From NCBI RefSeq assembly GCF_029433335.1, contig NZ_JAQTHX010000001.1, positions 1,364,001 to 1,428,000 on the forward strand: a stretch of DNA of 64,000 nucleotides, given 5' to 3'. Origin of the DNA: Bifidobacterium sp. ESL0745 (GTDB lineage Bacteria; Actinomycetota; Actinomycetes; Actinomycetales; Bifidobacteriaceae). Under the pieces are notes generated by a model. The model made no database searches. It was not told the origin of the DNA and saw only the letters and a list, made by a program, of their open reading frames with translations. Every line of letters starts with the position of its first letter. Position 1 is the first letter of the stretch. A program made the position numbers and the translations under genes. This document shows, in pieces, positions 27,596 to 46,464 of the stretch.

Positions 27596-28960
27596 TCAGT
27601 TCTTGAAGCTGTGGATCGGGGCGGGAATGCGGCCGCCACGGGTGACGAAGGCCTCGCACGAGGTCTGGTTGACCGGAATAATCGGAGCATAACCCATGAG
27701 GCCGCCGAAATTCGCAACCGCTCCAACACCCTTGCCATAAACCGGGATAACGCGCACGGCGGTGGTCTTTTGGTTGACCATGCCGATGGCGGCCTCATCG
27801 GCGATCATGCCGGAAATCGTGAAGGCCGTGGTGACGCCCGGAATGGCGATCATGTCAAGACCGACCGAGCAGACGCAGGTCATCGCCTCGAGCTTTTCGA
27901 TGGTCAGGCAGCCGGACGCAGCCGCGTCAATCATGTTCTTGTCTTCGGAGACCGGGATGAACGCACCGGAAAGTCCACCAACGTATGAGGAGGCCATGAT
28001 GCCGCCCTTCTTGACCTGGTCGTTCAGCATCGCGAGCGCCGCGGTGGTGCCGGGGGCGCCGACCTGGTCAAGGCCGATCTTCTCCAAGACCTCGCCCACC
28101 GAATCGCCGACGGCTGCTGTGGGAGCCAACGACAGGTCGATGATGCCAAAGGGCACGCCAAGCCGCTTCGAGGCCTCCTGCGCGACGAGCTGGCCGACAC
28201 GGGTGATCTTGAAAGCGGTGCGTTTGATGGTCTCACACAGGAATTCGAAATCCTTGCCCTTGGCTTGGTCGAGCGCGCGCGAAACCACGCCGGGACCGGA
28301 GACGCCGACGTTGACGACCACATCGCCCTCGGTGACCCCATGGAAGCCGCCGGCCATAAATGGGTTGTCGTCGGGGGCATTGCAGAAGGCGACGAATTTC
28401 ACACAGCCGTAGCTGTCGTTGTCGCGCGTGACGTAGGCGGTGTCTTTGATGACGTGGCCCAGAAGCTCGACGGCGTCCATATCGATACCGGTTTTGGTGG
28501 AGCCGACGTTGACCGACGAGCAGACGATATCGGTTTGCGATAGTGCTTGCGGAATGGATTCGATAAGCATGCGTTCGGCCGGCGTCATCGATTTGGAGAC
28601 CAACGCCGTATAGCCGCCGATCAGGTCGACACCGACCTTCTTGGCCGCGCGGTCGAGCGCATGCGCGATCTTGACGAAGTCGTCCGGCGACTTGCAGGAA
28701 CTCGCCCCTACCAGCGCGATCGGGGTGACGGTGATGCGCTTGTTGACAATCGGAATGCCGAAGTCGCGTTCGATGGCCTTGCCGACCTTCACGAGATCAC
28801 GCGCCTTGTCGGTGATCTTGTGGTAGATGTTGTCGCAGACCGTGTCCACGTCCGAGGCAGCGCAGTCAAGCAGCGAAATACCCATGGTAATGGTGCGTAC
28901 GTCGAGCTTTTCCTGCTCGATCATCTGATTGGTCTCGTGGACCTCCATAATGTTCAGCAT
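27596..28960 (-). CDS. UPF0210 / DUF711 family protein
   Basis: A 454-residue member of the UPF0210 (DUF711) family, recognisable from [30 protein letters not shown] and the Gly-rich closing region. The family is structurally related to the pyruvate formate-lyase fold, but its reaction is not established. The ATG at 28960 is chosen because AAAGGGG precedes it by five bases; the frame extends further only with no better signal. A UPF0237 ACT-domain gene lies upstream on the same strand. The two families are frequently adjacent, which suggests the ACT protein regulates this one. Confidence 0.9.
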
Positions 28961-29009
28961 TGCTACCCCTTTCATAAAATTCTGACGCAAATCTCTCTAT
29001 ACGGCACCT

Positions 29010-29147
29010 CTTGGTGCGCCAAGTAGGCCATTTTTTACAGAATCATACTCAATTCATCAATTTTTGACCCTCTTGGTGCACCAAGAACCCCGAAAAATAC
29101 CACAATTGCCTTCATTTACACTTTATAGGGCCACTTGGCGCGCCAAG
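29010..29147. repeat. 62-bp palindromic tandem repeat, array A (three palindromes)
   Basis: Palindromes CTTGGTGCGCCAAG (29010-29023), CTTGGTGCACCAAG (29072-29085) and CTTGGCGCGCCAAG (29134-29147) are spaced exactly 62 bp start to start. The 48-bp intervals resemble those of arrays B and C in the same orientation (for example CAATT and ATTTTTGACCCT blocks). The array fills the 253-bp gap between the UPF0237 and UPF0210 genes. Confidence 0.93.
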
Positions 29148-29213
29148 AAGACTTAAAAAGAGAGATTGCTTAGCGGACAAAAACAATTATTAGGAAACGA
29201 ACGTCGTTTTTAC

Positions 29214-29486
29214 TCAGACGCGGTGCATCTTGGTGAAGATTTCCTCACGCTGGCAGCGGATGCGCACGCCGATCTTCTCGCCAAGCGCTTCGAGGCCGTC
29301 GACCAGCGTCGAAAATTCCTCGTCGGACTTGGAGTGATCGACGATCATCATCATGTTGAAGAACCCGTCGATGATAGTCTGCGAAATGTCGAGGACGTTG
29401 ACTTTATGCTGCGAAAGGTAAGTGCAGACCTGCGCGATGATGCCGACCGTGTCCTGCCCGACCACCGTAATGACCGCTTTATCCAT
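29214..29486 (-). CDS. UPF0237 ACT-domain protein
   Basis: A 90-residue protein made of a single ACT domain (MDKAVITVVGQDTVGIIAQV and so on, with FNMMMIVDHS), a small-molecule-sensing fold related to GcvR. It lies upstream of the UPF0210 gene on the same strand, a common pairing; its ligand is unknown. The ATG at 29486 has a short AAGGGG-like site. The 253-bp gap to UPF0210 is long for an operon and holds repeat array A. Confidence 0.92.
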   Translation of the reverse strand: MDKAVITVVGQDTVGIIAQVCTYLSQHKVNVLDISQTIIDGFFNMMMIVDHSKSDEEFSTLVDGLEALGEKIGVRIRCQREEIFTKMHRV

Positions 29487-44047: not shown

Positions 44048-44185
44048 CTTGGCGCACCAAGAACCCCTTTTAACGACAATTGACCCCTCAATCTCATTAT
44101 TTTGGCCTACTTGGCGCGCCAAGAGGGCCATTTTTGCAACAATCCCCACCCAATCTTGCGATTTTGACCCTCTTGGCGCACCAAG
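44048..44185. repeat. 62-bp palindromic tandem repeat, array B (three palindromes)
   Basis: CTTGGCGCACCAAG (44048-44061), CTTGGCGCGCCAAG (44110-44123) and CTTGGCGCACCAAG (44172-44185), exactly 62 bp apart. The conserved 48-bp interval recurs once more after the third palindrome (to about 44233). It occupies the 419-bp divergent gap between leuB and the ABC ATPase gene. The rest of that gap shows only the ATPase ribosome site. Confidence 0.95.
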
Positions 44186-44374
44186 AACCCCTGATTTCGC
44201 AACAATTGACACTCGATCTCGCGATTTTCGCACCGCTAAAAGCATCCGCATACATTCCCTTTCAAACCAACTCCGAAAGCATGAACTGCCTGTCTACGTA
44301 TATACGAAACGTTGGTATGCTTGGGGCAGGTTTGGGTCGGCACGAAACCGACAAGGGTGAAGGGCGGAGGAATC

Positions 44375-45100
44375 ATGGAATTCGAAGCCAGTGATTTGGC
44401 TTGCGCAGTGCCGGATGCGCACGACACCGGTGGTGAAAAACAAATCTTTTCCGGCTTGTCAATCAGCCTAAACACCGGCGAGATCGTGGATCTCGTAGGT
44501 CCTTCCGGTTCCGGCAAAAGCATGCTGCTCACCACTCTGGCCGCATTGAACCCTTACGGCCACGGGAAAATGAGCATTGACGACGAAAAATACAGCCAGA
44601 CGACACCGCAATTGTGGAGACGGAAGGTGATGTATCTGCCGCAACGGCCCACGCTCGGTTCGGGTTCGGTACGTGATGCGATTTATTTCCCGTTCACGCT
44701 GCTGGTATTCAAAAAAGCCACGGCACAAAGCGGAAACGTTACGGCACCGGCCGATGCCGACATCCGCAAAAGCCTTGACGAACTGGGACTTCGCGATGTG
44801 GAGCTCGACCGGCCGGCGCAGGACCTTTCGGTAGGCCAGCAGGCGCGGGTCTGCCTGTTGCGAAGCGTGCTGACCAACCCCGAAGTACTGCTTTGCGACG
44901 AGGTGGACGCCGGCTTGGATGAGGCGAGCGCGGAGCTTGTCTCGTACATGCTGCATCAGTGCTCTCAAAACGGGATGATTATCCTTCGTGTTCGCCACCA
45001 CGGTTCCGACGGTCTGGCCGTGCGCACTCTGCAACTCGCAGACGGGGTGTTGAGCGAGATCACGGCACCGCAAGGCAACGACGGAGAGAGGCAGAAATAA
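44375..45100 (+). CDS. ABC transporter ATP-binding protein (YbbL/FetA-like)
   Basis: A 241-residue ATPase with Walker A GPSGSGKS, signature LSVGQQARV and Walker B VLLCDEVDAGLD. The partner permease downstream is of the UPF0014 (YbbM/FetB) type, whose E. coli counterparts export iron, so metal export is a reasonable guess only. The ATG at 44375 has GGGCGGAGGAATC upstream, clearly better than earlier in-frame starts. The stop overlaps a short open frame by one base (TAATG). Confidence 0.9.
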   Translation: MEFEASDLACAVPDAHDTGGEKQIFSGLSISLNTGEIVDLVGPSGSGKSMLLTTLAALNPYGHGKMSIDDEKYSQTTPQLWRRKVMYLPQRPTLGSGSVRDAIYFPFTLLVFKKATAQSGNVTAPADADIRKSLDELGLRDVELDRPAQDLSVGQQARVCLLRSVLTNPEVLLCDEVDAGLDEASAELVSYMLHQCSQNGMIILRVRHHGSDGLAVRTLQLADGVLSEITAPQGNDGERQK

Positions 45101-45294
45101 TGACGATGATTTCTGCAAGCCACATTATTGACGGACGGCAAACCCTTCAAAGGCGTTTCACCACAAAACAGCAGACGGAGAAAGCAGCCATGACGGCAAT
45201 TCTTTCCGGCCACACGCTCAGCGGACAACGAGCTCGGCAGAATTGTCTTGACACAAAACCTTGCCAAACTTGCCAAGGAGGAGAGACACAATGA
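45100..45294 (+). CDS. Possible coupled small protein between ATPase and permease
   Basis: A 64-codon frame whose ATG overlaps the ATPase stop (TAATG) with AGAGG upstream, and whose TGA overlaps the permease start. This nested arrangement is typical of translational coupling. The product is basic and polar, has three cysteines near its end (CLDTKPCQTC) and shows no family I recognise. It may equally be untranslated spacer. Confidence 0.35.
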   Translation: MTMISASHIIDGRQTLQRRFTTKQQTEKAAMTAILSGHTLSGQRARQNCLDTKPCQTCQGGETQ

Positions 45295-46214
45295 TGATTC
45301 CAACATTCCCCACGGCTTCAATCACTTCCGGCACCATCACCACGGCCGTCACCGCACATCAGGGCGTTTATACCATCGACGCGCTCGGGCTTACGGTCAC
45401 GCTGGTTCTGGTGGCGGTTTCCGCGCTGGTCGCCTATCTGCTCAAGTTGGACGTCGGCGGCAAGCTCATCTGGGCCGCTATACGCTCGTTCGTTCAGTTG
45501 ATGGTGATGGGTTTCATCATTACGTATATCATCACCGCCAACAACCCATGGTTCGTGATCGCCGTGATCGCCGTAATGATTCTCGCCGCCGTCGAAATCA
45601 CCCTGACCCGCACGTCGAACATCCCCCACGGGCTTGCGTTGCCGGTGCTCCTGACACTCGCCGTCACCGCGACCTTCATGGTCTCCGTGGCCACCGAACT
45701 CATCATCAAGCCGGACACCTGGTATTCGCCGCAGGTGCTGGTACCGATGGCCGGCATGCTTCTGGGCAACCTCGTTTCCGCCGTGGCGGTGGCGATGAGC
45801 CGTTTCTTCTCCGACATGGAGAACCGGCGTTACGAGGTCGAAGCCTACCTGAGCCTCGGCGCCACCCCGTTCGAGGCCGCGCGCCCGTCGATTATGGAAG
45901 CGATACGTTTGGGTCTGGTGCCCACAATCTCAAGCCTCGCCTCAAGCGGCATCGTGCTGATTCCCGGAATGATGTCCGGGCAGATCATGGCCGGCGGCAA
46001 TCCGCTGGAAGCCGCGAAATATCAGTTCGTGATACTTGCCATTATCAGCGCGCTGACCTTGCTTGGCGACACGATGATCATGCTGTTGATCTACCACCGC
46101 TGCTTCACCAAGGACGGCCAATACTTCCAGCCGAAGCCGCGCGGCGAAAGCCATCTCTTCGAATGGTTGAAGGTCCACGTCCATCATCACGAAAACAAAG
46201 TCAACGCAAAATAA
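45291..46214 (+). CDS. UPF0014 ABC transporter permease (YbbM/FetB-like)
   Basis: A 307-residue polytopic membrane protein with about seven helices. Family motifs include AAIRSFVQLMVMGFIITYI, LSLGATPFEA with the following EAIRLGLVPTI, and LIPGMMSGQIMAGGNP. It pairs with the ATPase encoded just upstream. The start at 45291 has a strong AAGGAGGAG site; the ten codons before it in frame are not needed. Family members export iron or related substrates in E. coli, and the substrate here is unknown. Confidence 0.92.
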   Translation: MMIPTFPTASITSGTITTAVTAHQGVYTIDALGLTVTLVLVAVSALVAYLLKLDVGGKLIWAAIRSFVQLMVMGFIITYIITANNPWFVIAVIAVMILAAVEITLTRTSNIPHGLALPVLLTLAVTATFMVSVATELIIKPDTWYSPQVLVPMAGMLLGNLVSAVAVAMSRFFSDMENRRYEVEAYLSLGATPFEAARPSIMEAIRLGLVPTISSLASSGIVLIPGMMSGQIMAGGNPLEAAKYQFVILAIISALTLLGDTMIMLLIYHRCFTKDGQYFQPKPRGESHLFEWLKVHVHHHENKVNAK

Positions 46215-46326
46215 CAGTCTCGCAACATGGCTGTGACGATAATTCCGGATTAGACGCTATCCATTATTTTGATTTCGATCTGGAAAATGAACGTCCTTTC
46301 TCGCCCTTCTCGCTTATTCGACGGTT

Positions 46327-46464
46327 CTTGGCGCGCCAAGACCCTCATTTCACGACGATTGACCACCCAATCTCATCATTTCGGGCGTCTTGGTGCACCA
46401 AGAAAGCCATTTTCGCAACAATTAACGCTCAATCTCATTATTTTGGCTCTCTTGGTGCACCAAG
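46327..46464. repeat. 62-bp palindromic tandem repeat, array C (three palindromes)
   Basis: CTTGGCGCGCCAAG (46327-46340), CTTGGTGCACCAAG (46389-46402) and CTTGGTGCACCAAG (46451-46464), again exactly 62 bp apart with the conserved 48-bp interval in the same orientation as arrays A and B. It fills most of the 330-bp convergent gap between the permease gene and the oligopeptidase gene. Confidence 0.95.

Follow-up and report, generated by a model that had tools for sequence, protein, structure and literature searches.

Helically phased palindrome arrays dispersed in Bifidobacterium genomes, putative docking elements for a trans-acting protein

The plasmid centromere sopC of F consists of fixed-length units in tandem, each carrying a single palindrome, that are bound cooperatively. 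The Noc sites of Bacillus subtilis are sequence-specific palindromes scattered round the chromosome, and their distribution is poor at the terminus. REPINs (repetitive extragenic palindromic (REP) doublets forming hairpins) are dispersed extragenic palindromes, and the single-copy, vertically inherited, nuclease-type gene associated with them, RAYT, is flanked by the repeat (PMC8049555, PMC3116915). Enterobacterial bacterial interspersed mosaic elements (BIMEs) are regularly spaced extragenic palindromes between genes, for which protein binding was proposed (PMC2817692), and AbiEi is reported to bind inverted repeats with positive cooperativity, Rv2827c binding two sets of repeats (PMC7319586). 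Here, we analysed array A, three palindromes lying between a UPF0237 and a UPF0210 gene in a 64-kb window (i.e. the whole stretch of Bifidobacterium sp. ESL0745 DNA under study, 64,000 nucleotides), together with its siblings in this and related genomes. We propose, with a probability of roughly 0.45, that these arrays are dispersed cooperative protein-docking elements kept by a trans-acting protein, perhaps an AbiEi/Vsr-like nuclease.

The arrays share with REPINs their extragenic, palindromic and dispersed nature and, by analogy, a nuclease-like open reading frame (ORF) lies between two arrays in all four genomes bearing its orthologue. They differ by near-perfect inverted half-sites of 14-15 bp, whereas REPs are imperfect palindromes of ~20-60 bp, by a helical phasing fixed at 62 bp and groups of at least three sites, by the lack of a covarying stem and by their presence at about two dozen places per genome, against hundreds for REPINs; the candidate protein has AbiEi- and Vsr/homing-endonuclease-like folds, whereas RAYT is a tyrosine transposase. 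The arrays may be likened to REPIN/RAYT in logic, not in parts. Like BIMEs they are regularly spaced extragenic palindromes between genes, but they differ from them in palindrome, in spacing and in A/T phasing, and alternating orientation is meaningless for a symmetric unit. Like Noc sites they are scattered and possibly terminus-poor, but they occur as phased triplets and the four full carriers have no Noc/ParB paralogue. Their units are tandem, of fixed length and with one palindrome each as in sopC, but the arrays are dispersed in the chromosome and their spacers are free to diverge. Finally, the candidate probably has an AbiEi-like fold, reminiscent of AbiEi and Rv2827c, but also a nuclease-like domain, and its putative targets are genome-wide arrays rather than one operator. 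The preliminary description knew of no described element with this build; none of five spellings of the palindrome was found in the literature searched, and nothing on these arrays was found among the matches listed for Bifidobacterium palindromic or intergenic repeats.

Architecture and conservation of the arrays

The analysed genome (G000; 2.36 Mb, 7 contigs) holds 60 exact copies of CTTGGYGCRCCAAG, against none of a reversed-pattern control over the whole genome, and at least 23 intergenic arrays, a lower bound obtained from the window, 16 further stretches and three additions from a profile search. These are not the few chance copies or the irregular spacing that the preliminary description had named as counting against it: the 60 exact sites come with regular neighbour distances. 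Arrays of six genomes were gathered under one rule, and all 231 neighbour distances fall within 61-63.5 bp, given that the chaining rule itself admitted only ~61-64 bp; centre to centre they are 62.0 (153 cases), 62.5 (55), 63.0 (15), 61.0 (5) and 63.5 bp (3). The unit is an inverted half-site, CTTGGYG/CRCCAAG, of 14 bp, often 15 bp in G029 and G118, where variants such as CTTGGTGSCACCAAG, with an additional base at the centre, are common. The half-integer distances are due to this extra base. In these two genomes the 15-bp variant is found mostly at the first or last site of an array and rarely in the middle (e.g. L149, L154, L049), and the outermost base is often altered at end sites (GTTGG... 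in the first, ...CCAAC in the last). Array ends thus seem specialised, the triplet itself being roughly symmetric about its middle site.

Among 91 arrays of G000, G029, G118 and G121, 73 have three sites, 17 have four and one has five, end sites being admitted at up to 3.5 mismatches; at no more than 1.5 mismatches, 86 of the 91 retain three or more sites and 5 have two. An admissible site arose in only 6 of 3640 trials on random windows, and at none of the 182 array ends does the next expected position beyond score better than 4. Five later arrays (L226, L227, L228, L232 and the UPF0210 array of G118), excluded from these counts, have three or four sites each. Since the first scan had missed that UPF0210 array and seven others, the numbers of arrays given are minimum figures; a lone chance site in L166 was dropped before counting.

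Spacers between two 14-bp sites were compared only when exactly 48 bp long. Read on both strands, these 153 spacers have A/T at position 1, then mostly GSCC (3-6), a run of A/T (8-12; 96-100 % A/T at 8-11, either letter) and GAWT (17-20), with little signal towards the centre. Outside the outermost palindromes the same half-pattern, though weaker, can be followed for ~21 nt before it fades (218 flanks). Compared with shuffled spacers, the power of A/T steps in 98 arrays is 14.7-fold at 10.33 bp and 13.7-fold at 10.5 bp, which bears out the strict phasing and one-DNA-face geometry proposed earlier, with palindromes at intervals of six helical turns. Such A/T phasing is as expected of bent, protein-covered DNA. 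As A-runs and T-runs are interchangeable and the flanking pairs do not covary, the pattern looks like a DNA-shape signal rather than an RNA fold. The build does not resemble that of a clustered regularly interspaced short palindromic repeat (CRISPR) array, the spacers sharing a position-specific pattern rather than being unrelated unique sequences.

Palindromes are better preserved than spacers between orthologous arrays: 856/861 against 1827/1956 identical positions for G029-G118 (19 pairs), 435/476 against 788/1087 for G000-G121 (11 pairs) and 177/194 against 321/475 for G116-G121 (4 pairs). The comparison was limited to pairs with the same number of sites, and detection of the arrays through their palindromes somewhat favours conservation.

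Symmetry fared differently. It had been proposed that the Y and R positions mostly change together and that symmetry itself appears selected, but these positions are independent in G000 (CG 25, CA 14, TG 7, TA 4; Fisher p = 1.0) and in G121 (CG 14, CA 19, TG 18, TA 10; Fisher p = 0.12), and 63 aligned sites revealed no covariation at six flanking position pairs. In the window, three of the nine sites are asymmetric. G029 and G118 use nearly always T..A and G116 mostly C..G, while G000 and G121 are mixed. Because the Y/R positions are independent and the flanking pairs do not covary, the constraint appears to concern the individual half-sites and not their pairing, and covarying symmetry or a hairpin finds no support in either test. 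We therefore give almost no credence to the arrays being RNA elements such as hairpins, terminators or attenuators: CTTGG-YGCR-CCAAG could form a 5-bp stem, but Y and R do not covary, 75.9 % of cells pair in the 63 aligned sites against 74.6 % after shuffling (a value reached by 55 of 500 shuffles), one covariation score was reached by 32 of 500 shuffles, the array pattern is strand-symmetric, and four array loci scanned gave no Rfam match at gathering score.

Genomic placement and history of the arrays

None of 109 arrays (one G116 array being counted as two pieces) lies inside a gene predicted by a home-made gene finder, which nevertheless missed a protein gene in the gap between paired arrays. 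The gaps they occupy are tandem in 80 cases, divergent in 17 and convergent in 12. By flanking proteins the arrays form 29 groups, of which 25 are found in two or more genomes, one shared flank being sufficient and some groups merging neighbouring arrays; unit number differs between orthologous arrays. The UPF0237-UPF0210 gap measures 245-255 bp with its array in five carriers and 13-22 bp in nine other genomes. Flanking genes, which we take from sequence reading to be dapB, leuB, major facilitator superfamily, ATP-binding cassette (ABC), rimM/trmD, murA and leuD, have no evident common theme. No tRNA or tmRNA was detected around arrays in 10 loci scanned. That the arrays are operators of a global transcription regulator needing three phased sites is improbable in our view: they are palindromic, intergenic and cooperative-looking, but the convergent gaps hold no promoter of a flanking gene, no theme unites the neighbours, and sister species have lost the sites wholesale.

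Few arrays fall in that third of the chromosome which faces dnaA, namely 2 of 22 in G121, 2 of 25 in G118 and 4 of 25 in G029, i.e. 8 of 72 against 24 expected in these three single-contig carriers, with the terminus assumed to lie opposite dnaA and the tests non-independent since the genomes share orthologous arrays. This bias, like the mixed housekeeping genes at the flanks (named from sequence reading) that point to no single regulon, would suit chromosome-organising sites of the Noc/SlmA kind, at which another DNA-binding protein marks the origin-proximal chromosome for segregation, compaction or division control. We regard this as unlikely, however: housekeeping genes may themselves be origin-biased, most of the genus lacks the arrays, and no ParB-family ORF was found beyond a single one in each of G000, G121, G029 and G118 (hit in two pieces), extra ones being present in G116, G117 and G025.

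Exact 62-bp-phased pairs occur in 6 of 112 Bifidobacterium genomes (34 in G121, 30 in G000, 21 in G029, 19 in G118, 10 in G116 and one in G117). A looser pattern gave 40-45 matches in G000, G029, G118 and G121, 21-22 in G116, 1-2 in G117 (one with the look of chance) and single, unphased-looking matches in five other genomes, where control matches were of the same order. In a tree of parAB and UPF0210 (3242 columns), used because UPF0210 only left the inner clade unresolved, G000, G029+G118, G116+G121, G002+G117 and G119+G120 form one clade with 100/100 support, G004 (flagged for composition), G015, G071, G025 and G024 falling outside; one inner fork is open. A unit profile, for which 150 candidates were scored per genome, yielded no match at E ≤ 0.01 in the five outside genomes, G119 and G120, and 8 in G117 and 3 in G002 (both strands counted); at E ≤ 1, one 12.4-bit match appeared in G015. 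The remnant arrays of G117 (366 kb) and G002 have palindromes with 1-3 mismatches at 61-62 bp spacing; a further array of G117 retains two intact sites. The simplest reading is one gain in the clade ancestor followed by one or two losses. A phage or viral origin found no support, the viral contig set (viral_contigs) having yielded no exact phased pair.

The nuclease-like candidate gene

An ORF with a Vsr/homing-endonuclease-like and a probable AbiEi-like fold sits between two arrays in the four full carriers, and these are the only genomes among the 112 with an orthologue. Clade members lacking it have arrays with fewer sites (G116), decayed remnants (G002, G117) or no arrays found (G119, G120). 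The candidate protein presents a Vsr/homing-endonuclease-like (PD-(D/E)XK) fold with the conserved acidic residues. PADLOC returned nothing for the G000 protein and two weak rows for that of G029 (E 6e-4 and 0.03), NCBIfam had no match, tblastn against a phage collection had none, and nothing was found on DUF559 in Bifidobacterium in the literature searched. By eye, eight paralogous nuclease-like loci of other bifidobacteria show no similarly phased arrays; three of the eight have a few recurring palindromes.

In the mechanism that we favour, one protein dimer would bind each palindrome, neighbouring dimers on one DNA face would cooperate by bending or wrapping the spacer, and a stable complex would need three sites (~180 bp). 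Less surely, the binder may be the AbiEi-like and Vsr/homing-endonuclease-like protein encoded between two arrays; arrays and gene could have spread together in the clade ancestor, as REPINs with RAYT, and be kept because the protein must dock or because its complex, once docked, is of service to the chromosome, so that arrays would thin out and decay once the gene is lost. The fuller version, about two dozen nucleosome-like docking arrays of at least three 62-bp units for a domesticated AbiEi/homing-endonuclease-like protein, a co-dependent REPIN/RAYT analogue made of unrelated parts and possibly coupled to replication, we consider rather doubtful.

Several points weigh against our proposal. 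G116 lacks the orthologue yet has at least 19 arrays, of which 10 comprise three or four sites. Matches of the candidate protein to PF18741 (REase_MTES_1575; 22, 29.3 and 24.1 bits, cut-off 38.2) and PF04480 (DUF559; 14, 17.3 and 15.5 bits, cut-off 20.6) fall below the cut-offs, and no structural match from Foldseek reached E 0.001; the first seven rows of its output are mitochondrial-ribosome proteins (E 1.2e-3 and weaker), to which we gave less weight than to the second look that indicated the two folds. Other genes may share the species profile of the nuclease-like gene, and target-site duplication was not seen, by eye, at one empty site. The pair of arrays round the gene is not unique either: arrays B and C of the window flank an ABC operon that none of the 12 near relatives asked possesses, so the arrays may simply capture cargo.

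Another reading is that of passive, BIME-like repeats, kept by binding of gyrase, HU or IHF or by slipped recombination, with no dedicated protein and with cargo trapped between copies. We find this quite unlikely. It agrees with the extragenic position, with unit numbers varying among orthologues, with two array-cargo-array cases in G000 whose pairs are the closest mutual copies in that genome, and with phased A/T steps, which would suit a wrapping protein; against it stand the near-perfect palindromes, the minimum of three sites, decay only in genomes without the nuclease gene, and the confinement of the arrays to one clade, gyrase being universal.

As a separate observation, matches to TTWTNCACA, which we take with the strict form TTATCCACA as the DnaA-box consensus, occur on either strand in the 220 bp that precede 11 of the 12 ORFs of the nuclease-like family from 12 bifidobacterial genomes (L025:3405, L140:2158, L049:2470, L154:3234; also L192, L193, L194, L195, L196, L197 and L199), the strict form upstream of 9 of 12; several of these ORFs are near-identical, leaving fewer independent cases. 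As background, 603.5 kb contain 22 loose matches, i.e. ~0.008 in a 220-bp stretch, and this count includes the four boxes of the family itself. Clusters of three (L175:41-109, G116) and two (L150:4234-4284, G118) strict boxes lie a few kb from an array of one orthologous group. Beside the DnaA-box match, just upstream of the ORF in G000 and G121 (L188:2587, L189:1444), is the 15-bp palindrome CGACCACWGTGGTCG, possibly the gene's own operator; one arm is altered in G029 and G118. Terminus-poor arrays and DnaA-box matches hint at a replication link and prove none.

The arrays of the window and their significance

Array A was confirmed, with exact sites at the three places first described and spacings of 62 and 62 bp (Table 1). 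Nine exact sites in the window form three triplets (A, B and C), alongside two chance-like sites with 2 mismatches each; these 11 matches at up to 2 mismatches compare with a shuffled mean of 1.35 (maximum 5), and none of 100 shuffles reached 11. The 48-bp intervals had been called related, which stands for the loose pattern common to all arrays, whereas only B and C are close copies within the window, with spacer identities of 0.75 and 0.71 where the mean within the genome is 0.46 (standard deviation 0.09). The wider extent given for array A is inferred from the outward half-pattern, which fades past ~21 nt.

Table 1 Coordinates of array A, its sibling arrays and adjacent genes within the window
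Feature	Position	Strand	Remarks
Array A	29010..29147	.	palindromes 29010-29023, 29072-29085, 29134-29147
Array A with outer 21-nt half-patterns	28989..29168	.	inferred extent of putative protein-covered stretch
UPF0210 gene, one side of array A	27596..28960	-	454 aa; name from preliminary description
UPF0237 gene, other side of array A	29214..29486	-	90 aa; name from preliminary description
Array B	44048..44185	.	palindromes start 44048, 44110, 44172
ORF between arrays B and C	44375..45100	+	from ORF list; start codon by eye; presumably ABC-transporter ATPase (sequence reading, no family search)
ORF between arrays B and C	45261..46214	+	from ORF list; presumably membrane permease (sequence reading)
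Array C	46327..46464	.	palindromes start 46327, 46389, 46451; close copy of array B

The ABC-transporter-like operon between arrays B and C (44048-46464) is absent in 12 of 13 relatives asked, and the corresponding flank group contains a single array in other carriers; among 14 genomes asked, the permease-like ORF was found only in G000 and the distant G024 (56 % identity). Recombination may allow arrays to take up cargo or to let it go.

Should the proposed partnership be true, a dispersed family of palindromes linked to a single nuclease-type gene would have been invented independently here, and the related species, whose array sets range from full through thinned and decayed to apparently absent, would provide a clean natural experiment. 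What binds the arrays is directly testable with one short oligonucleotide. Even without the nuclease, the arrays constitute a sequence-defined, helically phased DNA scaffold of at least three sites in Bifidobacterium.
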